Source: Martelella sp. NC20 (lineage in GTDB: Bacteria > Pseudomonadota > Alphaproteobacteria > Rhizobiales > Rhizobiaceae). From it: 64,000 bases of DNA. A model generated the notes under the pieces. The model did no database searches. It saw nothing but the letters and a program-made list of their open reading frames with translations, and was not told the DNA's origin. Shown one piece after another: positions 8,498-22,997 of the stretch. The position numbers and the translations under genes were made by a program. Every line of letters starts with the position of its first letter. Position 1 is the stretch's first letter. The stretch is from the NCBI RefSeq assembly GCF_013459645.1, contig NZ_CP054862.1, positions 195,515-259,514 of the forward strand. The letters run 5' to 3'.

Positions 8498-8705
8498 CAA
8501 TCATCAGATCTCCGTTATTACGCCTGTAATCCTGACCCCGCCAAAGATTGTCAATGACCGGACGACCACAAAAATAACAAAACTACAAAAACGACAAACA
8601 TAAATTAAAAACATCGACAGCTAACGAAATGTGCGGGGTATTTAATAACAAAATTCATGCCTGGGAGGAGCATATGAACCTGTTTTCAGACCGCAGGGAC
8701 GCGCT

Positions 8706-8875
8706 ATGAGCAGCGTGGATATGAAGTTTGATGCCTCCAAGGCCGCGATGGCCGATGAGGACAGCCACGCCATCGGAAACGCCAGCCAGTGGCGCCTGAC
8801 ATGGGAAAAGTTCCGCGACCACAGGCTTGCGTTCTGGAGTGGCGTCGTCATCATACTGATCTACCTCACCGAAAG
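8706..8875 (+). pseudogene. Remnant of a Dpp/Opp-type ABC permease (DppC N-terminus)
   Basis: After the ATG at 8706 come about 55 residues that match the start of DppC-like permeases: a polar leader, WRLTWEKFRDHRLAFWSGV, and the beginning of the first membrane helix (VVIILIYL). The frame then runs out of the family at about 8875, where it joins unrelated sequence, and stops at 8933. Roughly 80 percent of the gene is absent. An 11-codon frame (MNLFSDRRDAL) with a strong GGAGGAG site at 8664-8670 precedes it. Confidence 0.7.
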
Positions 8876-8879
8876 TTGT

Positions 8880-9339
8880 GTCAGCGAGGTGCGCAGCAGC
8901 ACGGCATCGAGCCGACGCCGCTTGCCGTGTTGACCATGACGATAAAGGCCGTGGCATAGGCGATCAGCAGGATCTTCGACATTTCACCGACGCCGAACCA
9001 GACGATGAACAGCGTGACAAGCGCGATCGCCGGCACGAAGCGGAAGAAATGGATGAACGGATCGACGATCGCCCGTCCGCGCGCCGAAATGCCGACCATC
9101 AGGCCGAGCGGAATGGCAACGGCGCTGCCGATCAGCCAGCCGACGAGTATCCGCATGATGCTGATCAGAACGGATTGCACCATCGTGCCGTTGCCGAGAA
9201 ACTCGATGAAACCTGACAAAACGACCGTCGGCTGCGGCAGGAAGAATGGATCGATGATCGTCATCGATGCCACTTGCCAGATCAGCACGAAACAGACCAC
9301 CCTTGCGATCGAAAGGTAGACACACAGATGCTTGCCCAT
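8880..9339 (-). pseudogene. Truncated, frameshifted SsuC/TauC-type ABC permease
   Basis: The 152-residue frame shows the N-terminal half of a nitrate/sulfonate/taurine-type permease (FLPQPTVVLSGFIEFLGNG, then GWLIGSAVAIPLGLMVG). Family members have about 250-270 residues. At about 8915 the frame shifts: the family-like continuation DAVLLRTSLT is read in a neighbouring frame until about 8880, where the sequence is cut. It belongs to the same decayed transporter as the ATPase and binding-protein remnants at 9282-10128. Confidence 0.8.
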
Positions 9340-10015
9340 TGGCTCGAGGCCTCCCTTTCAATGTCGTCTTCCAGCGAGCGTATTATCGTGGTGAATTCCG
9401 GGTCGAGATCGTCGCGGGGATAGTCGAGCGCGATGCCGTAGACTTGGCTGATGTTGGCGCACGGTCCCCGGCTCATCACGCCGGCGCGTTCGCCCAGAAG
9501 CACGGCCTCGCGGAGGTCGTGGGTGACGTATATGAAGGTGCGCCCGGTTTCCTTCCAGATGCGCGCAAGCTCCTTCTGCAGCACCCGGCGGGTCAGGGCG
9601 TCAAGGGCTGCGAAGGGCTCTCGTCCATCAGCACGATTTCGGGCCCGGCGGCGAGCGTTCTGGCGATCTGGACGCGTTGCTTCATGCCGCCGGAAAGCTC
9701 CGACGGCAGCTTCTTCTCATGCCCCTTGAGGCCGACCATGTCGATATATTCTGCGGCGATCGCGCGGCGGACCTTGCGGTCGCGACCGGCCATTTTCGGG
9801 CCGCTGTTCGATTGGCTGAGCGTCGAGGACAATGTCGCCTTCGGCCCGATGAGAAGGAAAAACTCGCCCCGCCTTATGTCGAGGATGATACCTTTGAGGA
9901 TGGGATCGCTCCCGGCCGGTTGGCCGGGATAGATCATGGCGACATCGCGAAACGAGACCGCCGGTTGCGCCTCGCCGCCTGTCGGCGGGGCCACTGTTTC
10001 AGGAGCGGAGGCCAT
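9282..10015 (-). pseudogene. Decayed SsuB/TauB-type ABC ATPase with frameshift, deletion and small inversion
   Basis: The N-terminal part starts at 10015 ([14 protein letters not shown]) and the C-terminal part ends at 9282. Three lesions can be seen. Walker A and the following ~50 residues are missing after FFLLIGP. A 54-bp segment at 9796-9849 is inverted: read on the other strand it gives [15 protein letters not shown], which belongs in this protein. At Walker B a 2-base insertion turns the expected [11 protein letters not shown] into [10 protein letters not shown] and a stop at 9593; the C-terminal VTHDLREAV then continues in another frame. The gene cannot make a functional ATPase. Confidence 0.88.
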
Positions 10016-10027
10016 CGGGTCGCTTTC

Positions 10028-10128
10028 TTACTGGGCGGAAAGCGTGACGCTGCCCGGAACGGCCTCTTCTAGGTAGTCCGGGTCGACGGCGGAATCGAAG
10101 GTGATCGGCGTCTTCAGAACGCCCGAGG
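10028..10128 (-). pseudogene. C-terminal remnant of a nitrate/sulfonate/taurine-type binding protein
   Basis: The last 33 codons, ending VPGSVTLSAQ and a TAA at 10028-10030, match in style the end of SsuA/TauA-like binding proteins (LKTPITFDSAVDPDYL). The stop lies 12 bases before the start of the ATPase remnant, which fits the usual binding protein-ATPase-permease order. Everything upstream is replaced at about 10129 by transposase sequence, so the element removed the rest of the gene. Confidence 0.6.
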
Positions 10129-10577
10129 CTCATGGCCGCATCGAGATCCGTCGCCACTTTGTCAGCCACGATGTCGGCTGGCTTGCCTCCGACCGGCGCT
10201 TTCCCGGCGAACCGCGTTTCCCCGCCCTTGCGGCCATCGCCATGGTCGAGGCTGAAGTCGAGCGCAACGGGGCAACATCGCTGTCACGGCGATACTATCT
10301 CACCTCCGCAAGGCTCACGGCGGCTCCGTTCGCCCGCGCCGTTCGCGCCCATTGGGGCGTCGAGAACAGGCTCCACTGGGTCATGGATGTCGTCTTCCAT
10401 GACGACCTCATGCGGCTGCGAACCGAAAACGGACCCGCAAACATGGCCACTATCCGCCACGCACCCATCAATATAGTCAAACAAATCAACGATAAGGCAA
10501 GCTGCAAGGTCAGACGAAAAACCCTCGGCTGGGACGACCAATACCTCTTCAACGCGATCACAAGTCAAAACATGTGA
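10129..10577 (+). pseudogene. ISAs1-family transposase, C-terminal fragment
   Basis: About 149 codons match the C-terminal part of ISAs1 (H-repeat associated) DDE transposases: YYLTSARLTAAPFARAVRAH, then HWGVENRLHWVMDVVFHDD, then KTLGWDDQYL near the end. Intact family proteins have about 370 residues, so the first 60 percent and the left end are gone. It joins the binding-protein remnant at about 10129. It marks the left edge of the compositionally different block that follows. Confidence 0.85.
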
Positions 10578-10582
10578 CCTTC

Positions 10583-10596
10583 AAGCGATTGCCCTG
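10583..10596 (+). repeat. Probable right end of the ISAs1-family element
   Basis: AAGCGATTGCCCTG lies just after the transposase stop and resembles the terminal sequence I know from ISAs1-family elements. No left partner is present, as that end was deleted. Confidence 0.45.
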
Positions 10597-10771
10597 CAGC
10601 AAGCTCACCCCTCTTGACCGCGGGCTTCGCGCATAAAGGGGCAGGTTTCGATTTCCAATTTTCGCAAGCGTGACGTCGGTCACAGAGGTAACGTGGTGAA
10701 GCGTTCATGAGCGCCCGATACTCATTCACTGCATCTTATCAATCACTATTCGAGAAGTGATCGATAAACAG

Positions 10772-11083
10772 CTATGGAGCAACAACAATATCCAGCAACC
10801 GCACAAATGTCTGCCCACTGTGCATGTCCCGCTCCAGCACGCCACCTTGCGAATGATCGCGTGGAAATGAGAACTTTATGGTGTTGAGGCGGGGAATTTC
10901 GAACCTCTTCAACATCTTGGGATCGACCCCCAGCCGTTCAGCGATGAAGGAAGCGGACAATTCTGGCTTGTCTTTATAGCAGTTGAATTCCTTCTCGCTT
11001 TCGAAAAACATATCGACCGTTACCCAGAATGGCCCGGCATTCTTTGAACGCACATATTTTGTGATGTCTTTCAAAGTAGTCAT
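10772..11083 (-). CDS. DUF4387 domain protein
   Basis: A 103-residue protein made of one DUF4387 domain, with the family hallmarks KDITKYVRSKNAGPFWVT at the start and GGVLERDMHSGQ near the end. This domain is known as a separate small protein or as the C-terminal part of AtuA/DUF1446 proteins. Here it is separate: its ATG overlaps the stop of the DUF1446 gene by 4 bases, so the two are likely made in equal amounts and act as one enzyme. The reaction is not known. It is the last gene of an operon starting near 15336. Confidence 0.9.
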   Translation of the reverse strand: MTTLKDITKYVRSKNAGPFWVTVDMFFESEKEFNCYKDKPELSASFIAERLGVDPKMLKRFEIPRLNTIKFSFPRDHSQGGVLERDMHSGQTFVRLLDIVVAP

Positions 11084-12462
11084 GCCGCGTTCTCCCGCGC
11101 ATCGAAATGATATTTTACGCGTACCAACTCACCGGGTTCCGATACCTCCACTACATGATTGAGCAAAAATTCATAAACTTGGCCGATCTGAATTTCTGCC
11201 GGCGAAAAGGGGAACCCATAACTGGGCAAAGGAATGCCGCGTTTGATGGGGAAATGAAAAAAGGTAGAGTTGCACGCCTTAGTCATGCGCGTCGCAATAT
11301 CCTGGGTGGGCGCGGTGACAACCAGCATCAGCAACACCTCTCGAGGCACGAAACCATCCGGTGGGGCATCGCCGGAAACTGCATTCCAGCCGTAAGGGCG
11401 AAGCGAGATAGTCCAGTCGTTTTGCCCAGGAAAGGTTTCGGTGATGATCAATGAGAGGCGCTCATGCATACGCTCCATGAAAACTTCAAGGGAACCCAAT
11501 ACTGTTGGGTCCTGTATTCCGACTATCATCATGGTCTGATAGGGCCCAACCCCCGCCCCCTCCAGCTTCATGGTATAAGGCTTTTCAACAAATTCGGACC
11601 CGCGCACCCGCACCGTTCTGCCGTCCAGCTTTTCATATACTGCCGCCTCGACCTCAAGAACGCCCCCCGGCTCTACCAACCGGTGCGGGTCGCTGTTTTC
11701 ATACAGCATATGCGCAGACACCGAATAGACCGTGCAGACATTATCGGGGTTGAGCGGACACACATCGAAATGGTCTTTGCCAATGGTAATCAGCACGCCG
11801 CCTTCCCGGGGGTTCTCGGTGCAAAGGCCACCACATTCGGCAATCTTCGCCGCATGCCAGGCCTGCGGCTTGCCCGCACCCAGCATCAACGGCACCGCGG
11901 CAAGAATTGCAGTGTCGGTAGTCCGCCCGCCAAGAACGATGTCGGCACCATTTTGTACCGCCTCGATATAGGGCTCGGGGCCCAATAGCGCCACGATATG
12001 CTCGCACTGCTCAACAACACCCGCTTCGAGATCCTTTGAAGGGGCCAGCGCCGAAATTTTCCCATCCGATAGCTTTTGCAAAACCGTCTTTTTGCTCTGT
12101 TCGCTATAGATAAGCGCCACCTTCGGCGAAACTTTCAGTTCAGCCGCGATCTCCATGACGATCGCATGGGTCCAGTCAACGCCGGCATCAGTGCCCGCCG
12201 TGCCGCAGGTACCCACCAATATCGGTTTGCCTGCCGGCAAGGCAACCCGTATCATTGCCGCCAGATCGCGCTTGATCGCATCGCGGCTCATTTTGGAAAT
12301 GCCGGTCGCAAGACATGACGGTCCGCTATCGGTGGAGCCGGCATCCACGGCAATCGCCTCGGCACCTTGATCGAGGCCCCATTGCACCTGCGCCAAGGAA
12401 ATACCTCCGCCCAAGACCCCAGCGGGAACAACCACGCCAACCGGTTTGAAATCATCGCTCAT
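11080..12462 (-). CDS. AtuA/DUF1446-family protein
   Basis: A 460-residue cytoplasmic protein of the DUF1446 family, named after AtuA of acyclic terpene (citronellol/geraniol) utilisation. Family marks include a glycine-rich start (PAGVLGGGISLAQVQ), DAGSTDSGPSCLATG at 41-55, GTCGTAGTDAGVDW near 84-97 and GGRTTDTAILAAVP near 178-191. The exact reaction is not established. The start overlaps the ATPase stop by 4 bases (ATGA). No other Atu or Liu genes (carboxylase, acyl-CoA dehydrogenase) are nearby, so a terpene role should not be assumed. It probably processes the compound taken up by the adjacent transporter. Confidence 0.88.
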   Translation of the reverse strand: MSDDFKPVGVVVPAGVLGGGISLAQVQWGLDQGAEAIAVDAGSTDSGPSCLATGISKMSRDAIKRDLAAMIRVALPAGKPILVGTCGTAGTDAGVDWTHAIVMEIAAELKVSPKVALIYSEQSKKTVLQKLSDGKISALAPSKDLEAGVVEQCEHIVALLGPEPYIEAVQNGADIVLGGRTTDTAILAAVPLMLGAGKPQAWHAAKIAECGGLCTENPREGGVLITIGKDHFDVCPLNPDNVCTVYSVSAHMLYENSDPHRLVEPGGVLEVEAAVYEKLDGRTVRVRGSEFVEKPYTMKLEGAGVGPYQTMMIVGIQDPTVLGSLEVFMERMHERLSLIITETFPGQNDWTISLRPYGWNAVSGDAPPDGFVPREVLLMLVVTAPTQDIATRMTKACNSTFFHFPIKRGIPLPSYGFPFSPAEIQIGQVYEFLLNHVVEVSEPGELVRVKYHFDARENAA

Positions 12463-13598
12463 TGCGCAGCTACTCCCTGTCCACCCATCAGATCGGCTTC
12501 CACATTTTCAAGCCCATCGAACCAGTCATCGACGGGAAACAATCGCACCGCCTCCCTGGGCATTTTCAAAAATCCCGAAGAAAGTTCTTTTACACTGCCG
12601 GTGGTCTCCACCCGCAACTTCGCGCCATCCATTTCCGCAACCACCAGCGAGTGCGAACCCAGATAGCTGGCGCTCAACACCTTGCACGGGAGCACGTTTT
12701 CACCGGTAGCATCTTTCTGCATGGCCACTACTTCCGGACGTATGCTCACAACAACGTCGCCTTCGGGCAAATTGCCCGCCGCTTCGGCATCGACCCGAAT
12801 TTCCGATGTTTCGCCGAACTGAACCACACGGCCCGCGCCCTTTTTTCGCAGCCTGCCGCGCAACAGATTGCTCGCCCCGACGAAATCGGCAACGAACGGG
12901 TCTGCCGGTGATTTATAAACCTCATTCGGGGTGCCGATCTGGGCAATCTTACCCCTGTTCATCACAATAATACGGTCGCTCAATGAAAGCGCTTCGGCCT
13001 GATCATGGGTCACAAACACCATTGTCACGCCGGTTCTGCGCTGCAAATCGCCCAGCCACAGCCGCGCCTTTTCGCGCAGCTTGGCGTCGAGATTGGACAA
13101 GGGCTCGTCGAGTAGCAACACATCGGGCCGATAAACCAGCGTTCGCGCAAGCGCGACGCGCTGTTGCTGCCCGCCTGACAATTCAGCCGGGTACCGCTCG
13201 GCATAAGCATCCATATCCACCATGGTCAGCGCCTCGTGAATCCGCTCGCGCGCGGTCGCCCCGCGCACCTTGCGCACCTCCAACGCGAAGTCCAGGTTTT
13301 CAAATACATTCATATGAGGCCACAGAGCATATGACTGAAACATCAGACCCAGATTACGGAACTGGGCATCGATAAACAGGTTCTTGTCGGAATTGAACAC
13401 TTCCCGCTCGCCAATGGTGATTGTACCAAGCGTTGGCCGGTCAAGGCCCGCCAAGGCGCTCAGCGTCGTCGATTTTCCGCAACCGGACGGCCCCAAAAGG
13501 GTGAGAAACTCACCACTTTGAACATCAAAGGAAACATCGTCGAGCGCGACGAACGCCCCATATCTGCGGCACAAATTACGAACTTTTACATCAGTCAT
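12459..13598 (-). CDS. ABC transporter ATPase (PotA/FbpC type)
   Basis: A 379-residue ATPase with Walker A GPSGCGKST near residues 36-44, signature LSGGQQQRVALARTL near 138-152, Walker B LLLDEPLSNLD near 159-169 and switch FVTHDQAEAL near 193. A TOBE domain forms the C-terminal third. The closest groups are importers for Fe3+, polyamine and aminoethylphosphonate. It overlaps the permease gene by 8 bases and the DUF1446 gene by 4, so the transporter and the enzymes form one operon. Confidence 0.93.
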   Translation of the reverse strand: MTDVKVRNLCRRYGAFVALDDVSFDVQSGEFLTLLGPSGCGKSTTLSALAGLDRPTLGTITIGEREVFNSDKNLFIDAQFRNLGLMFQSYALWPHMNVFENLDFALEVRKVRGATARERIHEALTMVDMDAYAERYPAELSGGQQQRVALARTLVYRPDVLLLDEPLSNLDAKLREKARLWLGDLQRRTGVTMVFVTHDQAEALSLSDRIIVMNRGKIAQIGTPNEVYKSPADPFVADFVGASNLLRGRLRKKGAGRVVQFGETSEIRVDAEAAGNLPEGDVVVSIRPEVVAMQKDATGENVLPCKVLSASYLGSHSLVVAEMDGAKLRVETTGSVKELSSGFLKMPREAVRLFPVDDWFDGLENVEADLMGGQGVAAQ

Positions 13599-15336
13599 GA
13601 AGCTTTACTCCGAACAAGCGTGAAGCGACCGTGATCAACGCTCCGGTGAGAAGAATTTGAAGCACTGCCAGCGCCGCAACGGGGCCGGTCTGCCCCTGAA
13701 TCCACAAGCTGAGCATTGTGGTGCCGATAACTTCGCTGCCAGGCGACATGAGGAACACAGCCGCCGAATATTCCTTGACAATCAGGATCATCAACAAAAC
13801 GAAACACGACAAAAGCGCCTGCTTTTGCAGAGGCAGAACAATGCGCGCCATCGTTCGTGTCCACCCCGCGCCTGCAGCCTTTGCCGCCCGGTCGAAATCC
13901 GTGGTGATCTGAAACAGGGCTGGCAGCACAATGCCATAACCCGCACTCATGAACCGGATCAGATAGGCGAGCAGCAATAACCAGATAGTATTGCGCATCC
14001 AGCTCAGCATCGGCACATAAACCGATGCATAAAACACCCCGAGTCCCACAATCAAACCGGGCAGGACTCTGGGCATCTGGGCCAATCCGTCGACGAACCG
14101 CCGCAGCGGGAAGTTTGATCGCTGCGCCACCAGCGCCACAGCCGCGATCAGAGCCGTGCCTAATCCGGCGCCGACCAAGGCCAGAATAATCGTGTTGATG
14201 ATCGATCTTTTGTAAACCTCGACAGTGAGAATATCAGCGTAGTTCTGCAATGTGACCACGTCGAAGAACGGCACATAAGGCGAAAGCAAGAAGGCGAACG
14301 ACCGCAAAAATACAGCGCCGAGCAAAAACAGGATGGCAAAAATAACGTAGGTCCACACCAGCCCAAATGCAGGCCATTTCCACACACCTAGCTCCAAGGG
14401 CTTGGCACCGCCAACGCGCGATCCTATGCTGACGAACCGGTATTCCCGCTGTAAAACGAGCCGCTGCAGACCGAACAGGATCGCCACCAGACCGATCATC
14501 GACACAGCAAGGGCGGACACCAGCCCGTATTCGGGAATGCCAGAGGTTTCAAACGCCTTTTCATAAATCAGCGTGGTCATCAGCTTAATGTTCGCAGGCC
14601 CGCCAATGATCAGCGGTATCGAAAGCGTTTCAAGCGCATGCACCACATTCATGATCAGCGCAAAGACCAGTGCGGGGCGCATCAGGGGCAACGTCACCTT
14701 GGTCAAAATACGCCAAGGCTTGGCACCAGCCATACGCGCGGCGGCATCATGATTTGGATCCTGCTGGCGCGCCGCCACAATGCAGTACAGAGTCGTAACC
14801 GGTGCACTGGCTATAGCTGTGATCACCGCCATGCCGACAACCGTATATAAATCCCACACCGGAAGCCCAAGGAAGTCGCGGACGAAGATCGTCACAATTC
14901 CCGAGGGACCATACGAAAGGATCGCGCCAAACCCGATAACCTGCGGCGACAAAAACAGCGGCCAAAGCAAGATCGCCGTAAGCGGTGCTTTGCCTGGCAA
15001 ATCCGTGCGCCCCAGCAAAATAGCAAAGCACGTGCCCAAAAGCATGGACAACACGACGACAATCACGGTGAAAACAAGGGTCGTCCCATAGGTTCTGACA
15101 ACCTCGGGGTCAGTGAAAATTCTCGACAGATTGGTGAGTGTGAAGACGGCATCAGGATAATAAAGCGGCTTATCCAGAAAAAGCTGAACAAATGCAGGTG
15201 CCATTGCGACCCCAATAAGAACAAATGCCAGCACGGCAATCGTTGCTTGAAGCCATGCGCCTGTCCCATTGAGAATGCCGCCGCTCGGCACAGCAGACAT
15301 CATGTCTTCGGTTGAATTTGACACATTCCCTCCCAC
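13591..15336 (-). CDS. Two-domain ABC permease (FbpB/AfuB type)
   Basis: A 581-residue membrane protein containing two fused permease units with about 12 membrane segments. EAA loops occur near residues 200-225 (AARMAGAKPWRILTKVTLPLM) and 490-515 (AAKAAGAGWTRTMARIVLPL). This double architecture is typical of Fe3+-type and aminoethylphosphonate-type importers, in which one polypeptide replaces the permease dimer. The frame opens with GTG at 15336; a GTG at 15324 after GGGAGGG and ATG codons at 15303/15300 are alternatives. It appears to be the first gene of the operon running to 10772. Confidence 0.9.
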   Translation of the reverse strand: MGGNVSNSTEDMMSAVPSGGILNGTGAWLQATIAVLAFVLIGVAMAPAFVQLFLDKPLYYPDAVFTLTNLSRIFTDPEVVRTYGTTLVFTVIVVVLSMLLGTCFAILLGRTDLPGKAPLTAILLWPLFLSPQVIGFGAILSYGPSGIVTIFVRDFLGLPVWDLYTVVGMAVITAIASAPVTTLYCIVAARQQDPNHDAAARMAGAKPWRILTKVTLPLMRPALVFALIMNVVHALETLSIPLIIGGPANIKLMTTLIYEKAFETSGIPEYGLVSALAVSMIGLVAILFGLQRLVLQREYRFVSIGSRVGGAKPLELGVWKWPAFGLVWTYVIFAILFLLGAVFLRSFAFLLSPYVPFFDVVTLQNYADILTVEVYKRSIINTIILALVGAGLGTALIAAVALVAQRSNFPLRRFVDGLAQMPRVLPGLIVGLGVFYASVYVPMLSWMRNTIWLLLLAYLIRFMSAGYGIVLPALFQITTDFDRAAKAAGAGWTRTMARIVLPLQKQALLSCFVLLMILIVKEYSAAVFLMSPGSEVIGTTMLSLWIQGQTGPVAALAVLQILLTGALITVASRLFGVKLHD

Positions 15337-15381
15337 CGCCTGCGCGGAATTCTTGCAAGCCCCCGAGGCTGCGGTTCCTGG

Positions 15382-16041
15382 TTATCCCTTGTTGCCGCTG
15401 GTTTCCTGCAGCAGCTCTTTGCAAGCATTGCCGATATGGCGCAGCATCAGCAGCTCGGCGAGCTCGCCGTCCCGCTGTGCTAGAGCCTCCACCACACCCG
15501 CATGTTCTTTCGAGGCGACCGCCAGACGCTCAGGCGACCGACCAAATCGAGTATGCGCCACCCGCAGGAACTGCCAAATCTCTCGGCCGAGAAGCTTCTG
15601 CAATCCCGCGTTGTTTGAAATTCGAGCAATTTCTGTGTGAATATCGCGAATAGCTGGCAACAGGCGGGCGTCATTCGACCCGAATTCCCGCACGCGAATT
15701 TCACCCTCGTCTACATAGCTGCGCAGAACCGCAATCTCCTCATCTGTGATCCGCTCCGCCGCACGCCTGGCCGCCAACCCCTCAAGCACACCACGAATCT
15801 CATAAAGCTCCACCAACTCGGGAACGCCCAGTACAGCAACGCGCATACCCGAATAAGGCACCCGCTCGATCAGATCACGCTCCTCAAGACGCAACAGTGC
15901 CTCCCGGAGAGGCGCCCGGTTCACTCCGAGGTCTCTTGCCATCGCTGCTTCGGTTAGCTTCGCGCCCGGCTCCAGCTCACCGCTCAAGATGGAAAGACCG
16001 ATTTGCTCGAAAAGCTTTTGGGAACTGGCACTCTGGTGCAT
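15382..16041 (-). CDS. GntR-family regulator (FCD type)
   Basis: A 219-residue regulator with an N-terminal winged helix (LFEQIGLSILSGELEPGAKLTEAAMARDLGVNRAPLREALLRLE, residues 9-51) and an all-helical FCD effector domain after about residue 75. FCD domains usually bind a carboxylated metabolite through a metal ion. It sits between the transporter operon and the divergent binding-protein gene. Two identical TTGTCGACAA palindromes lie in the gap to that gene and are its likely operators. Confidence 0.9.
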   Translation of the reverse strand: MHQSASSQKLFEQIGLSILSGELEPGAKLTEAAMARDLGVNRAPLREALLRLEERDLIERVPYSGMRVAVLGVPELVELYEIRGVLEGLAARRAAERITDEEIAVLRSYVDEGEIRVREFGSNDARLLPAIRDIHTEIARISNNAGLQKLLGREIWQFLRVAHTRFGRSPERLAVASKEHAGVVEALAQRDGELAELLMLRHIGNACKELLQETSGNKG

Positions 16042-16059
16042 GTCGACTCTTTCTCATTT

Positions 16060-16069
16060 TTGTCGACAA
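16060..16069. promoter_or_regulatory. Palindromic operator candidate, copy 1
   Basis: TTGTCGACAA is a perfect 10-bp palindrome, 18 bases upstream of the GntR start. The same 10 bases recur at 16154-16163. Position and repetition suggest autoregulation by the GntR protein. Confidence 0.65.
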
Positions 16070-16137
16070 TTTCCTATACGCTTCCTGAGTACTCGTCAAT
16101 ACTCCGCGACAATTTGGGCTCTGAAGTGTCCATTGCA

Positions 16138-16167
16138 TTGACAGCGGTCTATTTTGTCGACAATATC
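16138..16167 (+). promoter_or_regulatory. Promoter of the binding-protein gene with operator copy 2
   Basis: TTGACA at 16138-16143 and AATATC at 16162-16167 (18 bases apart; CAATAT gives 17) form a good sigma-70-type promoter for the gene at 16351. The second TTGTCGACAA palindrome (16154-16163) fills the spacer just before the -10, so a bound repressor would block it. A further inverted repeat (AATGTCC/GGACATT, 16173-16192) follows. Confidence 0.6.
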
Positions 16168-16350
16168 TGCCGAATGTCCGAAAGTGGACATTACCCTCAC
16201 CAAGTGAAAGCAACCTTGGCTTAGGGCAATTTTGCGCCCCTACAACGGGCCCAATGGAGCAAACGCTGCATTCTAAAAACCGCAAACGGTCGCGTGCGCT
16301 ATCGCCCGGTGAATAGGATTTATCGGGGTCAATAATGGAGGAGAACGTAC

Positions 16351-17436
16351 ATGTTTATCACTAAGCTACTGACCGCGGGCATTATGGTCGCCGCAGCGGC
16401 AACATCCGTGCAGGCACAGGAATTTCAGATCCCGGATTCCTATCCATCTGATTACGCCCAGGTTCTAGAAGGGGCCAAATCGGAGGACCGATTGCTGGTT
16501 TATTCCAACGTCTCCGCTGGCAACTGGCAACCCTTTATCGATCTGGCCAAACAGAAGTTTCCCTGGATGACCATTGAGACAACCGACGACAACTCGCTGT
16601 GGGAAAAGTATTTCGCGGAGAGCGGTTCCAATGTGCGCACCGCCGATCTCATCGTCAACACTTCACCTGAACGCTGGGTCGATGGGGTCGAGCGCAGTGC
16701 GTTCCTTGACTATAAGTCACCTGAAATTCCCAATCTGCCTGAATGGAGCATCACAACCGGGCCCGGCGTCTACGCGGCGTCGGCAGATCCGTTCATTCTA
16801 GCCTACAACAAGCGTGCCTTTGCCGAGCCGCCAAAGTCGATTGCTGATGTTATCGCCGTTTATAAGGATAATCCCAGCATGCAAGGCAAGGTCAGCACAT
16901 ACACTCCGGAGCGTTCCATCGGCATGTCACTGTGGAAAAGCTGGAGTGAGAGCCAGGATGGTTCTAAACAGCTCATTGAGCAGCTGGGGCCCTATATGAC
17001 CCCTGACACCAGCGCGGGTACAATGCGTGAAAAAGTGATGACCGGAGAATACTCCGCCGCCATCTTCACCTCCGGCGCCGGCATCCGGCAATATGAGCAA
17101 CCAGCCGTTAAAGCTGTTGCGGGTTGGGTATTTGCGGCCGATGGCACGCCAGTGTTACAACGCAGTGTTGCCATCACCTCGGCAGCCTCCAGCGTCAATT
17201 CCGCCAAGCTTTTCCTTGATTTGCTTTTGTCGCGTGAAGGACAGATTGCCTTCGCGAATGGTGGTCAAACGCCATATCGCGCCGACATCGAGCCAGATGA
17301 CGTGCCCTATGCCAGCCTCAGCCGCATCATCCAGGAAATCGGTGAAGACAATATCGTGTTCATCACCCCAAAGGCTGATCTGGAAGATGGTTCCGAAGAG
17401 TTCTTGACTTTCTGGAACGAAGCTCTGGGACGCTAA
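16351..17436 (+). CDS. ABC transporter solute-binding protein (Fe3+/phosphonate type)
   Basis: A periplasmic binding protein of 361 residues with a Sec signal peptide cleaved near residue 22 (VQAQ). It resembles AfuA/FbpA and PhnS-type receptors: LLVYSNVSAGNWQPF at the start of the mature lobe, GVYAASADPFILAYNKRAF in the middle, and GEYSAAIFTSGAG near residue 230. The tyrosine cluster used by true iron binders is not evident, so an organic ligand is more likely. It follows a strong GGAGGAG ribosome site and is divergent from the permease operon, which has no binding protein of its own; the two transcription units presumably make one importer. Confidence 0.88.
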   Translation: MFITKLLTAGIMVAAAATSVQAQEFQIPDSYPSDYAQVLEGAKSEDRLLVYSNVSAGNWQPFIDLAKQKFPWMTIETTDDNSLWEKYFAESGSNVRTADLIVNTSPERWVDGVERSAFLDYKSPEIPNLPEWSITTGPGVYAASADPFILAYNKRAFAEPPKSIADVIAVYKDNPSMQGKVSTYTPERSIGMSLWKSWSESQDGSKQLIEQLGPYMTPDTSAGTMREKVMTGEYSAAIFTSGAGIRQYEQPAVKAVAGWVFAADGTPVLQRSVAITSAASSVNSAKLFLDLLLSREGQIAFANGGQTPYRADIEPDDVPYASLSRIIQEIGEDNIVFITPKADLEDGSEEFLTFWNEALGR

Positions 17437-17450
17437 CCTTAAAGCCTGAT

Positions 17451-17473
17451 GGATCGGGGCCGTCCCCGGTCCA
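17451..17473 (+). terminator. Hairpin between binding protein and hydrolase genes
   Basis: The segments TGGATCGGGG and CCCCGGTCCA flank a short loop and pair with one G-T wobble. This lies 15 bases after the binding-protein stop and likely reduces transcription into the hydrolase gene. It also argues against using the ATG at 17449 as the start of that gene. Confidence 0.5.
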
Positions 17474-17502
17474 TTAAACATTCGTTTTACGGGGCCAGTT
17501 CA

Positions 17503-18297
17503 ATGCCATATCACCTGCCCGGCCGGCAATGGCCTGAAGCCTTCCATTTCAGCACAGCGTTTCCACGCTTCGCTTATTGTTCCCACATCCCGCAAAATCC
17601 TCAATCCGGGCCCGATGGCGGCAAACTTCTAGTCGCTATACACGGATCGGGACGCGATGCCATGGCTTATCGGAATGCTTTGATCGATTTCTCAGAAGCC
17701 ACCGGTTGCGTTATTCTGGCACCGCTATTCCCTACATCCCCCTATGGTGACGGCAATGCTGATGGTTACAAATATCTGGTTGAACAGGACATCCGCTACG
17801 ATCTGATTTTACTGGCGATGGTCGCAGAATTGGAAACCGCAACCGGACTGTGCTTTGATAAATTTGGGCTTTTCGGCTTCTCGGGCGGCGGGCATTTCGC
17901 CCATCGCTTTCTTTATGTACACCCCGAGAGCCTGAGCGCTGTCAGCATTGGCGCGCCGGGCGGCATCACCCCGCTCGATCCGTCACAACTCTGCTGGACC
18001 GGCACCGCCGATCTTCCCGAGATATTCGGCAAACCATTTGACGAAGAAGCGCTCAAGTCCATCCCCATTCAACTGGTGGTTGGCAGCAACGATTCCGTAC
18101 GGTTCGCATCCTCAACAACCGCCAGCCTGTCACTTATCAAGGGGCGCAACCGGATCGAACGCATTGGCGAACTTCACGATAACTATCTTAAGGCCGGACT
18201 GTCCGTCCGGCTGGATATTGTTCCCGACTGCGGCCATGAAGCAATGAAAATCATCCCGACAGTTGTTGGATTTATGAATGGCCATTTCGTAAAATAG
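17503..18297 (+). CDS. Alpha/beta hydrolase
   Basis: A 264-residue serine hydrolase of the alpha/beta fold. The oxyanion-hole region is LLVAIHGSGRDAM near residues 43-55, the nucleophile elbow GFSGGGH near 125-131, and the catalytic His is in CGHEAMKI near residue 247. No signal peptide is seen, so it acts in the cytoplasm. I took the ATG at 17503, because the earlier ATG (17449) lies inside a hairpin. It follows the binding protein on the same strand, so it probably cleaves an ester or lactone imported by this system. The substrate is unknown. Confidence 0.82.
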   Translation: MPYHLPGRQWPEAFHFSTAFPRFAYCSHIPQNPQSGPDGGKLLVAIHGSGRDAMAYRNALIDFSEATGCVILAPLFPTSPYGDGNADGYKYLVEQDIRYDLILLAMVAELETATGLCFDKFGLFGFSGGGHFAHRFLYVHPESLSAVSIGAPGGITPLDPSQLCWTGTADLPEIFGKPFDEEALKSIPIQLVVGSNDSVRFASSTTASLSLIKGRNRIERIGELHDNYLKAGLSVRLDIVPDCGHEAMKIIPTVVGFMNGHFVK

Positions 18298-18364
18298 AGC
18301 GTTTTCCCGAGCCTTCCGGGTCATATCCGCACGATCTGACCCGGAAGGGTCGGAAAACGCTCTA
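18295..18364. repeat. Long dispersed-type palindrome after the hydrolase gene
   Basis: The outer arms TAGAGCGTTTTCC (18295-18307) and GGAAAACGCTCTA (18352-18364) pair perfectly. The inner arms CCTTCCGGGTCA (18312-18323) and TGACCCGGAAGG (18337-18348) also pair. The hydrolase stop codon is part of the left arm. Such elements are common as scattered intergenic repeats in rhizobial genomes and probably act here as a transcription terminator. Confidence 0.8.
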
Positions 18365-18421
18365 AGCCAAAGTCAAGCAGAAATTCCACTTATCAAGGCT
18401 GTGCAGTTTTCCCGAGCCACT

Positions 18422-19235
18422 TCAATCATCGAGAGCCTTGTCACTGCGAAGGTGCAAGGACCATCTACGGAGGATGGTGCCCCGTATTGCCTTGAGCGCC
18501 GTCGAACTGGCCGCAGGACTGAATGCAACACCCATGCCCCCGGCCCTCTTGCTCACCAGACCCGGCCGGAAAGTGTTGCCGAGAAAGTCGAACTTGTAGA
18601 GCGGGTGAGGACCTCGTCGACTTTCATCCTTGCAGTAGACGATTTTGGTCTTCTCAGGATGAAGCGTCAGCCCACAGTCAGTACAACGAGCCTCCAAAGC
18701 TTCCTGAAGCGCCATCGCTTGCCTCTCACTTCTACAGTGACAGATCGCGTCATCAGCATAGCGCTCAAACGGAATGTCCGGGAAATTCCGACACATCCAC
18801 ATGTCAAACGCATAGTGAAGAAAGAGGTTTGCCAAGAGGGGGCTGATCACCCCGCCTTGTGGCGTTCCTCGTTCTCTGGCGACGAGACTTCCGTCCGGCA
18901 TCTGCACTGGCGCCTCTAGTGGTTCGATTCCAACATTTGGTTCCCCTCGCTGCGACCTCATCAGCAAATGTTGGAATCATGGGAACCACTAGCAAATATA
19001 TATTTTCTAGTGGAATTTTAGAATTTGACATTTGATGTACGAGGTCGCTGAAACGGGACTCAAATGTCAAATTCACTCCACTAGCCATCGTTCGATGTAT
19101 AAAAGCACCCACGCGCAATCGGTGTGCTTGCGCACAGCCCGCATCAGCAGGTCCGGTTCGATGCTATCGAAGAAAGCCTTGATATCGAGATCAAGAACCC
19201 AATCGTAACGCCAGCATCGCTGCCGTGCCACGCCG
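18422..19235 (-). pseudogene. Group II intron reverse transcriptase/maturase fragment, interrupted
   Basis: Two pieces of one LtrA-type reverse transcriptase are present. The first (19235 to 19085) encodes CWRYDWVLDLDIKAFFDSI to IERWL. The second (18918 to 18422) encodes APVQMPDGS, GTPQGGVISPLLANL and the catalytic YADD box, and ends after SLHLRSDKALDD. Removing the insertion at 18919-19081 plus one TA restores RWLEAPVQ in frame. The N-terminal quarter, the maturase X domain and the intron RNA ends are missing, so neither splicing nor movement is possible. Confidence 0.88.
18919..19081. mobile_element. 163-bp twin-hairpin MITE-like insertion in a CTAG target
   Basis: The insertion splits the reverse transcriptase frame and is flanked by CTAG on both sides (18916-18919 and 19081-19084), as expected for TA duplication inside a CTAG target. 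It holds two separate hairpins, each bounded by CTAGTGG and CCACTAG: 18916-18992 (inner 14-bp arms 18926-18939/18965-18978) and 19007-19084 (inner 15-bp arms 19021-19035/19060-19074). An AT-rich palindrome (18994-19005) lies between them. It has no coding capacity. Confidence 0.8.
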
Positions 19236-19771
19236 GCACGTCGAGTGCCGGCGGCGTTCAACAATGTCGGCGGCAGGTCGATCAGCGCGGCGGCGCGGGT
19301 GATTTCGCCTCTGCCATTCAGACCCGGTCCCGCAAGCAGCGGCGGCACCCTGATCGAGGCCTCGTGACAGGATCGCTTGTATTCCGCGTTGCGGGTCTTG
19401 AAGTGACAGCCGTGGTCGGATGTGAACAGGACGATCGTGTTGTCGAGTTCGCCGCGCGAAATCAGCGCGTCGATAATCCTGCCAAAGGCTTCGTCAAGAC
19501 GCGCGATCATGCCCATATCAGGGGCATGATCGCGCGTTCGGAAATTATTCGAAACGGTGTTCGGCGAAGACATCGGCTGACGCTTCGCTGGGACTCGGAA
19601 AATTTTGGGAGAAGCGTTCGCAGGGTCGCCGTCGCCAGGTCCCGGAAACAGCTGACGTTTGCGGAAATGCGTCGCGCCAATTGGATAGAGCCGCTCGATA
19701 GTGCGGCGTTGGTCGGCCGGTGCTCGGCTCGAGCAACGGCCACGGCATGGCGGTCGCTCACCGGTCGTGCG
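19236..19771 (-). pseudogene. Sulfatase fragment fused to the reverse transcriptase remnant
   Basis: The C-terminal half of a sulfatase/alkaline phosphatase-superfamily protein: RLDEAFGRIIDALISRGELD, then TIVLFTSDHG with the metal-binding Asp-His pair, then EASIRVPPLLAGPGL and a break at LIDLPPTLLNAAGT. At about 19235 the frame continues without a stop into reverse transcriptase sequence. Upstream it is open to a TAA at 19772-19774 with no convincing start, and the N-terminal part with the formylglycine site is absent. A 15-bp foldback (19500-19536) lies inside it. Read as the product of a deletion joining two genes. Confidence 0.78.
19500..19536. repeat. Perfect 15-bp foldback inside the sulfatase remnant
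   Basis: CGCGCGATCATGCCC (19500-19514) and GGGCATGATCGCGCG (19522-19536) are perfect inverse complements around a 7-base loop. The right arm is the one that belongs to the sulfatase frame, or both may be; a short inverted duplication at a rearrangement site is the simplest reading. Confidence 0.7.
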
Positions 19772-19881
19772 TTAACACTTGGCGTGCATCAAATATCCGT
19801 CGTGGTCTGATCTGAAGTGCAGATCCTTACATGTCAGTCTCGCGCAAAAAATACGCGATGTGCGTGTTCCGGTTTCGAAGA

Positions 19882-20307
19882 TCAATCGATGGCGGATGCC
19901 GTTGCCAGGGCGGCTGCGCCGATGCGGCCGATGTCGCCGTCCTCCTCGTCGCTTGCCCCCGAAACGCCGATGGCGCCGATGATCTCGGAACCGGAGCGAA
20001 GCAGCACGCCGCCGTCAAGCGGAACGCCGTTGGGTATGCAGAGCAAGGCATAGCGACCTTCACCCTCGACGACTTTCTGGAAATCGAGGGTGTCGCGCCT
20101 GAAGAGTACGGCAGTGCGCGCCTTCAGGGTTGCAATCTCGACGCTGCCGACCTGGGCATTGTCCTCGCGATGCAGCAGCACGAGATGGCCGCCATCATCG
20201 ACGATCGCGATCACCAGCCTGAGGCCTCGGCTCCGGGCCTCCGTGTCGCAGGCGGCGGCTATGGTTCTGGCGGCTTCAAGCGTGAGTGCGGTTTTCGTGG
20301 CGAGCAT
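19882..20307 (-). CDS. GlcG/HbpS-family (DUF336) protein
   Basis: A 141-residue single-domain protein of the GlcG/HbpS family. The family core is visible: TLEAARTIAAACDTEA at the start, VIAIVDDGGHLVLLHRED near residues 32-49, and GGVLLRSGSEIIGAIGVSGAS near 97-117. GGAGGAAAAG directly precedes the ATG at 20307, so I reject the longer frame to 20397. Members occur beside glycolate and small hydroxyacid genes, but their biochemical role is unclear; some bind haem. It is the last gene of the erythronate-type operon, 15 bases after the isomerase gene. Confidence 0.88.
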   Translation of the reverse strand: MLATKTALTLEAARTIAAACDTEARSRGLRLVIAIVDDGGHLVLLHREDNAQVGSVEIATLKARTAVLFRRDTLDFQKVVEGEGRYALLCIPNGVPLDGGVLLRSGSEIIGAIGVSGASDEEDGDIGRIGAAALATASAID

Positions 20308-20321
20308 TTCTTTTCCTCCAG

Positions 20322-21101
20322 TCAATAAAGCCGGGCTCCCAGGTCTTGCATCCAGTGCAGGCCCTCGTCCGTTCCGGCGCGGGGTTTGTATTCGCAACCG
20401 ATCCAGCCGCGGTAGCCAAGGCGATCGAGTTCGCTGATGAGATTGCCATAGTGGACCTCGCCCTCATCGGGTTCGGCGCGGCTCGGGACGGCCGCGATCT
20501 GAACATGTGCGATGAGCGGCAGATGGGTTTTCAGCCGCGTGAAGATGTCGCCCTGCGCGACGCCGACATGATAGGCATCGAACATGATCTTCACGTTCGG
20601 GGCGCCGATTTGCCGGATGATGTCCGCCTTTTCCTCGATTGTGGAGTAGAAATAGCCCGGCTTGTCTCTCTGGTTGATGCCCTCCAGAAGCAGCATCATG
20701 TCCGGTGCGCGGGCGGCGGCCTTCTTGACGTTCTCGACCAATACCGTCCGCGCCTTATCCTTCTGTGCCGGCTCGACCACGCCGGCCATGACATGGATCG
20801 CGGATGCCCCGGAAAGTCTTGCCCAGTCGAGCGCCTGTTCGAAATCGGCTTCGAACGCCTGCCGGCAATCGGCGAGCGCTGCCCGCCCGAACTCGCCCTT
20901 CCCGGCGTCGCCGGGCGGCGTGTTGATGCCAAGCAGCGTGAGACCGAGGGCCTGGCAGCGGTCGCGCACGTCCTGCGGCGGGATATCATAGGGCCAGTGC
21001 AGTTCGACGGCGCGAAAACCCGCAGCGGCGGCGGCATCGATGCGTTCCAGCAGCGGACGGTCGGGCCAGAGAAAGCCGAGATTGGCGGAAAATCGGGGCA
21101 T
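20322..21101 (-). CDS. otnI: 2-oxo-tetronate isomerase (hydroxypyruvate isomerase family)
   Basis: A 259-residue TIM barrel of the hydroxypyruvate isomerase family. Characteristic segments are FSANLGFLW at the start, GFRAVELHWPY near residues 26-36, INTPPGD near 57, LLLEGINQRDKPGYF near 136-150, KIMFDAYHV near 172-180 and GCEYKPRAGT near 235-244. Next to OtnK and OtnC homologues it should convert 2-oxo-tetronate to 3-oxo-tetronate, as in the characterised D-erythronate/D-threonate pathways. The stop of the aldolase gene is 3 bases before its start. Confidence 0.85.
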   Translation of the reverse strand: MPRFSANLGFLWPDRPLLERIDAAAAAGFRAVELHWPYDIPPQDVRDRCQALGLTLLGINTPPGDAGKGEFGRAALADCRQAFEADFEQALDWARLSGASAIHVMAGVVEPAQKDKARTVLVENVKKAAARAPDMMLLLEGINQRDKPGYFYSTIEEKADIIRQIGAPNVKIMFDAYHVGVAQGDIFTRLKTHLPLIAHVQIAAVPSRAEPDEGEVHYGNLISELDRLGYRGWIGCEYKPRAGTDEGLHWMQDLGARLY

Positions 21102-21104
21102 GGG

Positions 21105-21737
21105 TCACCGCAGCCTGAATGTCGCGTTGAGATCGGCGATCGCCGAAGGCGCAAGATGCCTGACCGGCATTCCACGGGTGATGATCGCAAGCTTTGCCGC
21201 CTCTTCCAACTCCTCGATGGCGAAAACCGCTGCGTCGAGGCTCGCTCCGCAGACGATCGGCCCGTGGTTCTCGAGAAGTGCGGCGCTGTGGTCGGCGACG
21301 ATTTCGGCAATCCGCGCCTTTACCTCCGCAGAACCCGGCCGCGTGTAGGGCACGACGGGCACGGTGCCCACGCGCATCACCACGTAAGGCGTGATCGGTG
21401 GGATGGCGTCGGCCGGATCCGTATCCGAAAGACAGGCAAGCGCGGTCGCGTAGGAGGAGTGCAGATGGACGACGGCGGCGCATGAACGCCCCTGGTAGAA
21501 GGCGAAATGCAGCGGCAGTTCCTTCGTCGGCTTTTCGCCGGAAATATGGTTCCCGTCGATATCAAGCTTTGAAAGGCGATCGGCCTGAAGAAAGCCGAGG
21601 CACGAATTCGTCGGCGTGGCGATGTAGCCGCCGTCGATGCGCGCGGAAATATTGCCGGATGAACCGGCCGTCAAGCCTCGCTCGAAAAGCGAGCGGCCCC
21701 ATTTCACGATGTCCGCGCGAACGTCTTCTTCGGTCAT
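21105..21737 (-). CDS. otnC: 3-oxo-tetronate 4-phosphate decarboxylase (class II aldolase family)
   Basis: A 210-residue class II aldolase/adducin protein. The zinc histidines can be seen in VVHLHSSYATALA (near residue 94) and the later LLENHGPIVCG (near residue 156); GSSGNISAR near 22-30 forms the phosphate-binding loop. In the OtnK/OtnC pathway this enzyme decarboxylates 3-oxo-tetronate 4-phosphate to dihydroxyacetone phosphate. The ATG overlaps the kinase stop by 4 bases. Alternative family functions (fuculose-phosphate aldolase) fit the neighbours less well. Confidence 0.87.
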   Translation of the reverse strand: MTEEDVRADIVKWGRSLFERGLTAGSSGNISARIDGGYIATPTNSCLGFLQADRLSKLDIDGNHISGEKPTKELPLHFAFYQGRSCAAVVHLHSSYATALACLSDTDPADAIPPITPYVVMRVGTVPVVPYTRPGSAEVKARIAEIVADHSAALLENHGPIVCGASLDAAVFAIEELEEAAKLAIITRGMPVRHLAPSAIADLNATFRLR

Positions 21738-22996
21738 GGTCGTTCAAGCTCCTGCAGGGCTTTCGTGAAAAAGTCGGGACCGCCGAAATTGCCGCTCTTC
21801 AGCGCCAGGCCGAGCGGGCCGTTTCTCTCGCCAACGAGCATGGGCACGCCGGGATCGATTTCGCGGCCGACACGCATGCTGGCAAGGCCCAGAGCTTCCA
21901 CCACCGCCCCCGATGTCTCTCCGCCGCCGACGACGATGCGGCGGATGCCGGCGTCAGCAAGGCTTCGGGCGAGTGCGGCGAAGAAGCTTTCGATGTGTCC
22001 CGCTATAGCCTCCCGTCCGAACCGCCGTTGCGCTTCGGCAACCGCGTCCGGCGCGGCGGTCGAGAACACGATCGGCGTGTTATCGCCCTGCTCGGCAACC
22101 CATGCGGAAACGCCCTCCGGCGAGATCTCGCCGCCTGCTAGCGCGCGGGGATCGACGGCCAGGGAAGGATTGGCAGTTGCATAGCGGGCGACCTGTTGCT
22201 GCGAATTGGTTGAGCAGGAACCGCACAACACGACGCCCGGACCGGTCACCGGGGGCAAAGTCTCCGCCGCGTCGGCGAGCTTTCCCCTGGCCCTGAAGTT
22301 TTGCGGAAGGCCCTGGGCAATGCCGGACGCGCCGGTGACAAGCCTGTGGCCGGCAACGGCAAGACCGATCGTGACGAGGTCGTCGTCGCTGATGGCGTCG
22401 GTGACGACAAGGCGCCGGCCCGCCTGTCTCTCGGCGGCGAATGCCGCAGCCAGCGAAGCGCTTCCGGCGCGCACCGTATCGAGGGCAATGCCGCCAACGG
22501 CGCCCCTGGTCTGGTATCCGAGCCAGCGACGGATATCGGGATCGGTCATCGGCGTCAGCGGGTGATGCTGCATGCCGCTTTCGCAAAGCAGGCGGTCTCC
22601 GACAAAAAGATGTCCCATGAAAACCCGCCGGCCGGTCGCCGGAAACGCCGGGCAGACGACGGCGACGTCGGTCTGCAGCAGGTCGAGCAGAGCTTCCGCC
22701 ACCGGCCCGATATTGCCGTCCTGCGTGGAATCGAAGGTCGAGCAATATTTGAAGATGATCTGTTCGCAGCCCTGGTCGAGCAGCCAGCGCACGGTCGCGA
22801 GAGACTGCGATACCGCCTCTGAAACCGGCGCGGATCGGGTCTTCAGCGCGACGACGCCGGCCTCGCAGGCGGGCGCGTTGGAGGCGATGCCGGAAAACTG
22901 CCCGGAAAATTGCAAGGTCGCCATGCCGCCCTTGGCAAGCGTGTTGGCGAGATCGCTCGCACCGGTAAAATCATCCGCGATGGCGCCGAGCAGCAT
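21734..22996 (-). CDS. otnK: 3-oxo-tetronate kinase (DUF1537 four-carbon acid sugar kinase)
   Basis: A 420-residue kinase of the four-carbon acid sugar kinase family. The N-terminal substrate domain starts with IADDFTGASDLANTLAKGG, and the C-terminal nucleotide-binding domain contains VVGGGETSGAVVEALG near residues 359-374. The expected product is 3-oxo-tetronate 4-phosphate. It starts 1 base after the stop of the dehydrogenase gene and overlaps the aldolase gene, giving a tightly coupled operon. Length and motifs match intact family members. Confidence 0.9.
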   Translation of the reverse strand: MLLGAIADDFTGASDLANTLAKGGMATLQFSGQFSGIASNAPACEAGVVALKTRSAPVSEAVSQSLATVRWLLDQGCEQIIFKYCSTFDSTQDGNIGPVAEALLDLLQTDVAVVCPAFPATGRRVFMGHLFVGDRLLCESGMQHHPLTPMTDPDIRRWLGYQTRGAVGGIALDTVRAGSASLAAAFAAERQAGRRLVVTDAISDDDLVTIGLAVAGHRLVTGASGIAQGLPQNFRARGKLADAAETLPPVTGPGVVLCGSCSTNSQQQVARYATANPSLAVDPRALAGGEISPEGVSAWVAEQGDNTPIVFSTAAPDAVAEAQRRFGREAIAGHIESFFAALARSLADAGIRRIVVGGGETSGAVVEALGLASMRVGREIDPGVPMLVGERNGPLGLALKSGNFGGPDFFTKALQELERP

Positions 22997-22997
22997 A

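Follow-up and report, generated by a model that had tools for sequence, protein, structure and literature searches.

What compound is served by a bacterial locus that encodes an AtuA/DUF1446 protein and a DUF4387 protein together with an importer, a serine hydrolase and a GntR regulator of its own? The locus in question occupies positions 10772-18297 of a 64,000-nucleotide stretch of Martelella sp. NC20 (NZ_CP054862.1, positions 195,515 to 259,514), and this whole stretch is referred to below as the window. Our answer, held with moderate confidence, is that the cassette imports a conjugate of a citramalate-type acid, that the hydrolase opens the conjugate, and that the AtuA-DUF4387 pair then cleaves the freed acid, giving acetate and a 2-oxo acid.

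All seven reading frames at 10772-18297 were open and lay where an earlier reading of the letters (the original prediction) had placed each of them. The anatomy that it described, with a 4-base overlap of the AtuA and DUF4387 genes and with a GntR gene and two identical operators between divergent runs, was confirmed by the open frames and the exact operator copies. The leftward run comprises the genes for GntR, the fused permease, the ATPase, AtuA, and DUF4387, and the rightward run comprises those for the solute-binding protein (SBP) and the hydrolase. A gap of 45 bases separates GntR from the permease, and the genes downstream of it overlap (permease/ATPase by 8 bases, ATPase/AtuA and AtuA/DUF4387 by 4 bases each). 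Two starts were corrected while their frames stood: the 581-residue permease read from 15336 is annotated to start at 15324, and the hydrolase start at 17449 is probably 18 codons too early, as the record annotation gives 17503 and the N-termini of relatives agree with the later start. In a Pfam scan (threshold E 0.001), the SBP scored under both of its Pfam cut-offs, and the hydrolase had no Pfam match. The features are as follows.

10772..11083, minus strand: DUF4387 small subunit, CmlB-like (Pfam DUF4387, 98.9 bits; 9erq_B, E 5e-10)
11080..12462, minus strand: AtuA/DUF1446 large subunit, predicted CmlA-like lyase (Pfam AtuA, 73.7 bits, cut-off 22.8)
12459..13598, minus strand: importer ATPase with a TOBE_2 domain (Pfam ABC_tran, TOBE_2)
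13591..15336 (annotated start 15324), minus strand: fused two-domain importer permease (two BPD_transp_1 stretches)
15382..16041, minus strand: GntR/FCD regulator, leading the leftward operon (Pfam GntR and FCD)
16058..16070, no strand: putative operator 1, TTTTGTCGACAAT, adjoining the GntR start (exact copy and recurrence in relatives)
16152..16164, no strand: putative operator 2, identical to operator 1 and 94 bp from it
16351..17436, plus strand: SBP, with a signal peptide judged by eye (7f6e-7f6u, best E 4e-32)
17503..18297 (17449 in the original prediction), plus strand: alpha/beta serine hydrolase, by eye without a signal peptide (S145, D215, and H263 invariant)
18295..18364, no strand: palindrome 3' of the SBP-hydrolase operon, possibly its terminator (single genome copy; 85% match to its own reverse complement)

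The AtuA-DUF4387 pair

The sole significant solved relatives of both window subunits were PDB 9erq and 9evf, a complex of an AtuA/DUF1446 and a DUF4387 protein deposited as 'Citramalate lyase, subunit A (cmlA)' and 'subunit B (cmlB)'. The window AtuA matched 9erq_A with 253.7 bits (E 3e-74), and 9erq_B was the only solved relative of the window DUF4387. The alignments spanned nearly the full length of the pair, with identities of 35.5% for AtuA to CmlA and 30% for DUF4387 to CmlB, and 46 residues were invariant across a set of 15 diverse members, among them CmlA and the window protein. The known and the window systems share the same two families in neighboring genes. CmlA is 92% identical to an E. 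coli protein and 94% identical to a Salmonella protein, and CmlB is 85% identical to the E. coli one; the genes for this pair follow that for methylaspartate ammonia-lyase in operons shared with glutamate mutase, a dicarboxylate symporter, and class I fumarase, whereas the window pair is accompanied by an ABC importer, a hydrolase, and a GntR regulator. The available part of the 2015 mesaconase paper called the fate of citramalate in methylaspartate operons 'still unclear' and left DUF1446 there without a known function (PMC4682846). With CmlA and CmlB deposited as a citramalate lyase, the claim that DUF1446/DUF4387 proteins have no settled reaction needs amending. An activity for the window subfamily was not found in literature searches judged from listings, and the word DUF4387 was absent from all papers found for DUF1446 or DUF4387.

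From these sequence ties, the window pair is predicted to act as a lyase. Although its AtuA and a separate DUF4387 are encoded together, the pair does not fall inside the CmlA clade; it may work like CmlAB, and we do not class it as CmlAB. A Klebsiella plasmid (L098, 8935-18835) carries genes for an AtuA 56% identical to CmlA, DUF4387, fumarate hydratase, and several aldehyde/alcohol dehydrogenases, and together they perhaps convert a C5 alcohol to citramalate by oxidation.

The window AtuA has numerous relatives (2432 over threshold among 8000 scored). From 431 candidate stretches in species genomes that encode a relative, the best 80 were taken as loci with flanks of up to 10 kb, some shorter; the top one, in Pseudooceanicola onchidii, is 64% identical. 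DUF4387 lay directly behind AtuA in 78 of these 80 loci, while the window importer type was found in L004 and L035 alone and the window hydrolase type in L021 and L022 alone. No locus of the 80 held importer and hydrolase together, and the complete set of seven, which the original prediction proposed to look for in other genomes, was found nowhere besides the window among these loci and the permease relatives examined. A fixed tie of DUF1446/DUF4387 to importer and hydrolase was thereby refuted in a narrow sense. The seven-gene set is modular, not obligate, and the AtuA-DUF4387 pair is a free-standing enzyme, as the near-constant presence of DUF4387 and the rarity of the importer and hydrolase indicate.

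The operons around AtuA were counted in 76 of the 80 loci, after dropping L025 and L031 (AtuA uncalled) and L058 and L068 (no gene called), with a gene caller that recovered DUF4387 in just 59 of the 76. Of the carboxylate transporters, the citrate-type CitMHS was present in the AtuA operon in 18 of the 76 loci and TctC in 10. Compared with the other genes of the same loci, AtuA operons were enriched in CitMHS (18/188 vs. 14/853 genes, p 9e-7), TctC (10/188 vs. 12/853, p 0.0025), and MmgE/PrpD (9/188 vs. 5/853, p 0.00015), these p-values being optimistic because the rows are related and kinship was ignored. Class II aldolase (9 vs. 5), TonB receptors (15 vs. 20), and an AbrB-type membrane protein (6 vs. 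6) were also enriched among the same 188 and 853 genes; no enrichment within the operons of the 76 loci was seen for 2-hydroxyacid dehydrogenase, GntR, glycerate kinase, or a citrate-synthase-type gene. A divergent gene encoding a helix-turn-helix and a citrate synthase domain stood directly upstream of the AtuA operon in 12 of the 76 loci (for example, L014, L020, L021, L027, and L057; members scanned were L019, L021, and L057), and its product perhaps acts as a regulator, using an enzyme fold to sense a citrate-like ligand.

The importer family, its lyases, and its regulator

The nearest solved chains to the window SBP were 7f6e-7f6u (best E 4e-32), and 7f6e, judged by eye, appeared identical to the SBP encoded on plasmid pTT27 of Thermus thermophilus HB8, which we take to belong to the Mg-citrate importer MctABC. 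Both importers consist of an SBP, a fused permease, and an ATPase, all three homologous, with 33% identity between the permeases. Permease relatives came from 58 plasmid records, of which 15 were examined including our own, and from genome searches, whose 17 permease places besides that of the window were all fetched; two of these searches scored up to three candidates a genome, and relatives can have been missed. The permease tree contained 34 rows picked by similarity to the window, some of them via AtuA, with L099 as a very long outlier and L152 left out. In this tree, the window formed one clade with L004, L125, L126, and L103 (support 100/99). These four closest importers found are 51-64% identical to that of the window and come from three lineages, and all five rows carry genes for GntR, SBP, ATPase, AtuA, and DUF4387, arranged about the divergent promoter in four different orders. 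Permease-driven matches of at least 50% besides the window's own were G377, genus-mate G929, and a Microvirga, all three with GntR, AtuA, and DUF4387; G929 was found by a search aimed at the taxonomic order of G377 after the G377 match.

Other lyases take the place of AtuA-DUF4387 in the enclosing group of 17 rows. A CoA-transferase and a CitE-type lyase are encoded beside the importer in L104, L131, L145, L146, and L127, and a CitE-type gene alone beside that of L132. The importer of L129 is accompanied by an HpcH-type aldolase and a relative of the window hydrolase (42%), and that of L105 by a methylisocitrate-lyase-type gene and a serine hydrolase. As CitE and the L129 aldolase both belong to PF03328, the C-C lyases of the importer group span three Pfam families. 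The paired CoA-transferase and CitE-type genes resemble those of the CoA-dependent (S)-citramalate route, which the available part of PMC4682846 describes as a CoA-transferase and citramalyl-CoA lyase in mesaconate use; that route has the same overall outcome, pyruvate and an acetyl unit, whereas the window cassette lacks a CoA-transferase or CitE gene. For the L104 lyase and CoA-transferase, neither of which reaches an NCBIfam cut-off, the solved relatives include malyl-CoA/beta-methylmalyl-CoA lyase and succinate-hydroxymethylglutarate CoA-transferase. Among the other 16 tree rows were three tricarballylate loci, the PrpF locus L150, the isocitrate/isopropylmalate-dehydrogenase-type L149, L141 with an aconitase-like neighbor, and a second, separate AtuA pairing (L102 and L035); eight of the 16, Thermus included, had no partner from the reference set used. 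We read this family as carboxylate importers, for which 'iron' appears to be a poor label.

The closest importers serve two groups of AtuA, one formed by the window and L004 and the other by L125, L126, and L103. The second group, which represents two of the three lineages, joins CmlA in the AtuA tree (fork 89/86, next step out 99/97), which gives the grouping of its lyase with CmlAB modest support, and its DUF4387 proteins are 41-48% identical to CmlB vs. 30% for that of the window. The same type of regulator and importer with two versions of the enzyme is what would be expected if the two versions have similar acids as substrates.

The regulators of L103, L004, L125, and L126 are 47-56% identical to the window GntR. 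In the divergent gap of the window, TTTTGTCGACAAT occurs in two exact copies (16058-16070 and 16152-16164), with 0.06 copies expected allowing up to one mismatch and two copies in 1 of 100 shuffles. Pairs of TTGTNNACNA-type sites were present in the regulator gaps of the window, L004, L125, L126, L103, and L102, and two such sites appeared in 1, 0, 0, 0, 0, and 0 of 2000 shuffles, respectively; this result is descriptive, as the regions had been inspected before the pattern was defined. Two exact copies of TTGTCGACAA are present in each of the window and L103, and one in L126. No pair was found by the same pattern in L101, nor near the regulators of L147 and L106. The operators are spaced by 94, 73, 73, 97, and 95 bp in the importer clade and by 19 bp in L102; at 10.5 bp per turn, spacings of 94, 95, 97, 73, and 73 bp correspond to 8.95, 9.05, 9.24, 6.95, and 6.95 turns, which is only suggestive of helical phasing.

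The proposed route and its competitors

The hydrolase supplies the remaining step. Its Ser145, Asp215, and His263 (numbered from 17449) were invariant in eight aligned hydrolases, its best solved relative was poly(aspartic acid) hydrolase-1 (E 6e-9), and, as no signal peptide was seen by eye, it should act inside the cell. In two Sphingomonas loci, a relative (47%) is encoded immediately ahead of AtuA, and further relatives adjoin sister importers in L129, L147, and L148 (42, 35, and 31%). Hydrolases of different families are encoded in the operons of L004 (one of the alpha/beta and one of the beta-lactamase fold) and L105 (beta-lactamase fold), and an S15 hydrolase lies next to, and convergent with, the SBP gene of L126. 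The imported substrate is thus likely to be conjugated, and an amide conjugate is as possible as an ester. A literature search for citramalic acid esters as a carbon source gave nothing relevant in what was available of the sources.

We propose a two-operon catabolic cassette under its own GntR repressor. The SBP, fused permease, and ATPase would import an ester or amide conjugate of a tertiary 2-hydroxy di- or tricarboxylic acid of the citramalate type, the cytosolic serine hydrolase would free the acid, and AtuA with DUF4387, as a CmlAB-like two-subunit lyase, would cut it into acetate and a 2-oxo acid, which would be pyruvate if the acid is citramalate. The cleavage would proceed without CoA activation, for which the cassette has no gene, and, as acetate and the 2-oxo acid enter central metabolism, no further pathway genes would be needed. 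GntR would bind the two identical operators, whose spacing is about nine helical turns, and close both divergent promoters until released by the acid or a product. Citramalate is the leading, not the sole, candidate, and we infer the exact acid, the conjugate, the order of hydrolase and then lyase, the repression, and the inducer. The original prediction of a catabolic set with its own importer is supported by these comparisons, and its placing of the hydrolase ahead of the DUF1446-DUF4387 step holds up as plausible.

Several observations weigh against this proposal. 'Citramalate lyase' is the label of the depositor, and no paper on 9erq was found in literature searches. The window AtuA is 35% identical to CmlA and stands in the tree outside the group of CmlA and L098. 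Plain AtuA identities to CmlA are 36, 37, and 33% for L125, L126, and L103 vs. 35.5% for the window, and with such equal values it is the tree fork (89/86) and the small subunit that carry the link to CmlA. The printed 7f6 chains differ from one another at three positions, none of which the window SBP retains: Asp, Thr, and Tyr of 7f6e are replaced there, by eye, by Ser, Ala, and Gly. These positions presumably contact the ligand, and the ligand may differ. Among the sister importers, L147, L148, and L130 have hydrolase or nitrilase genes with no operonic C-C lyase seen, and L128 is accompanied by a CoA-transferase only. No hydrolase was recognized with the importers of L103, L102, and L035, and the contig of L125 ends in the SBP gene. 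Finally, the hydrolase relatives of L095, L096, and L097 accompany other ABC importers, with a C45 acyltransferase or peptidase beside two of the three, which may mean amides. In L095 and L097, one of them on a Klebsiella plasmid, the hydrolase relative has genes for GntR, a C45 acyltransferase/peptidase, and an ABC importer as neighbors, and the set is perhaps an amide-conjugate uptake system.

The competitor that survives best keeps the architecture and the chemistry and replaces the acid by one that is not citramalate-like in size, such as 3-hydroxy-3-methylglutarate, 2-isopropylmalate, benzylmalate, hydroxycitrate, or malate; we give it perhaps one chance in a handful or slightly better. 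It draws on the three altered SBP positions, on the subfamily operons, which carry CitMHS, TctC, MmgE, and class II aldolase rather than methylaspartate genes, and on the L104 CoA-transferase, which resembles benzylsuccinate CoA-transferases as well as the succinate-hydroxymethylglutarate enzyme. However, in L125, L126, and L103, the importer, which is 51-64% identical to that of the window, is accompanied by an AtuA-DUF4387 pair that groups with CmlAB.

It is unlikely that the subfamily is a hydratase, isomerase, or tautomerase of a dicarboxylate instead of a lyase. Such a role would accord with the lack of a reported activity in the literature listings and with the divided terpene literature, in the available parts of which the acetate lyase step on a tertiary 3-hydroxy acyl-CoA is assigned either to AtuA (PMC4847356) or to LiuE (review PMC4097962). 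The tie to the deposited citramalate lyase and the other C-C lyases in the same place beside related importers speak against it. The terpene step, if performed by AtuA, is the same kind of cleavage. The acyclic terpene AtuA belongs to the same Pfam family as the window protein, and the canonical AtuA of the same plasmid is 23% identical to the window AtuA over 209 residues and is paired with an AtuA_ferredoxin protein instead of DUF4387. The citronellol (Atu) route itself was rejected, given the DUF4387 partner and the absence of any other atu gene name among the annotated neighbors (49 kb; atu genes were not searched for elsewhere in the genome), which bears out the earlier remark that terpene genes are absent.

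Ferric-binding proteins use a Tyr-Tyr dyad to hold iron. An importer for iron (ferric or ferric-carboxylate) or for a phosphonate, with the AtuA pair as a chance neighbor or chelator handler, is very improbable and was rejected: the permease is annotated as 'iron ABC transporter permease' and components for 2-aminoethylphosphonate are among the NCBIfam best matches, but PhnT2 for the ATPase (351.7 bits vs. a cut-off of 457.7), PhnU2 (146.6 vs. 593.25), and the regulator phnR_burk (93.5 vs. 271.5) all fall short, the window SBP lacks the Tyr-Tyr (YY) dyad, AtuA and DUF4387 accompany the importer in five of the five clade rows, and the importer kin lie beside carboxylate enzymes. The ATPase called FbpC-type in the original prediction has PhnT2 as its best NCBIfam match, and the FbpC label is rough. 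Fe3+ specificity of the importer, which would have counted against the original prediction, found no support.

Setting of the cassette and its wider meaning

The seven-gene stretch looks like an acquired cassette. Its composition is foreign to its surroundings, with a GC content of 53.4-56.5% in eight 2-kb windows starting at 10001-17001 and 56.0% at 18001-20000, vs. 58.8-65.5% in the remaining windows of 1-40000. An ISAs1 transposase remnant (10101-10577) lies to its left and a group II intron remnant (18422-19573) to its right. AtuA was detected at E 1e-60 in 11 of the 201 genomes searched, our own included, with identities of 31-40% in the other ten, and in none of the 12 same-genus genomes listed. 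The genome is 6.11 Mb in three contigs, its source is a sediment bacterium, and window positions 10000-20400 match plasmid unnamed2 of Martelella sp. NC18 (NZ_CP054860.1) at 100.0%.

At 8655-10577, a broken ABC importer operon split over several frames adjoins the ISAs1 remnant. The intron remnant consists of group II intron maturase fragments, and one frame passes from a choline-sulfatase-like piece into maturase sequence, placing the remnant in or beside a damaged sulfatase gene. A D-erythronate cluster adjoins the island at 19882-23990 (D-erythronate dehydrogenase, 3-oxo-tetronate kinase, aldolase, a TIM barrel, and a heme-binding-like protein); otnK and otnC were also found behind the sister importer of L149. 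The same plasmid carries another AtuA set, unrelated to the first, just outside the window (L106, 5756-15053; NZ_CP054860.1, 165755-175052). There, GntR is divergent to the canonical AtuA, which is joined by the AtuA_ferredoxin protein, a carboxylesterase, and an ABC importer with two permeases and two ATPases.

A deposited structure already represents the enzyme type, and a solved relative exists for the importer type. In the available parts of the literature searched, we found no description of the two combined with the regulator, the operators, and the hydrolase, nor of one importer family joined to exchangeable lyases. Related sets in which importers of this kind accompany other lyases point to a broader group that is little known. 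A broader generalization is offered tentatively, as a possibility we rate below even chances: a modular class of import-hydrolyze-cleave cassettes for conjugates of tertiary hydroxy-carboxylic acids, together with an AtuA superfamily that consists throughout of acetate-releasing (retro-aldol/retro-Claisen) lyases. If so, the C-C lyases paired with one importer family would come from at least three Pfam families (AtuA/DUF4387, HpcH_HpaI, and PEP_mutase/isocitrate-lyase), the HpcH_HpaI member acting with a CoA-transferase as the CitE type or alone as an aldolase. The AtuA partners, DUF4387 or AtuA_ferredoxin, would be interchangeable, which would explain both the cleavage of citramalate and the disputed terpene step; were AtuA to perform the acetate lyase step as the available text of PMC4847356 has it, the whole superfamily would share one chemistry. 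The second AtuA set would then be an independently assembled example.

AtuA/DUF1446 and DUF4387 proteins are widespread and are usually annotated as terpene genes or as unknown. Here, one large subfamily is tied to acid cleavage through importers, a regulator, and operators, which gives it a testable substrate class. The labels 'iron transporter' and 'terpene' are put in question, one importer family is seen fitted with different lyases, and the second AtuA set on the same plasmid lets the general rule be tested in one organism.

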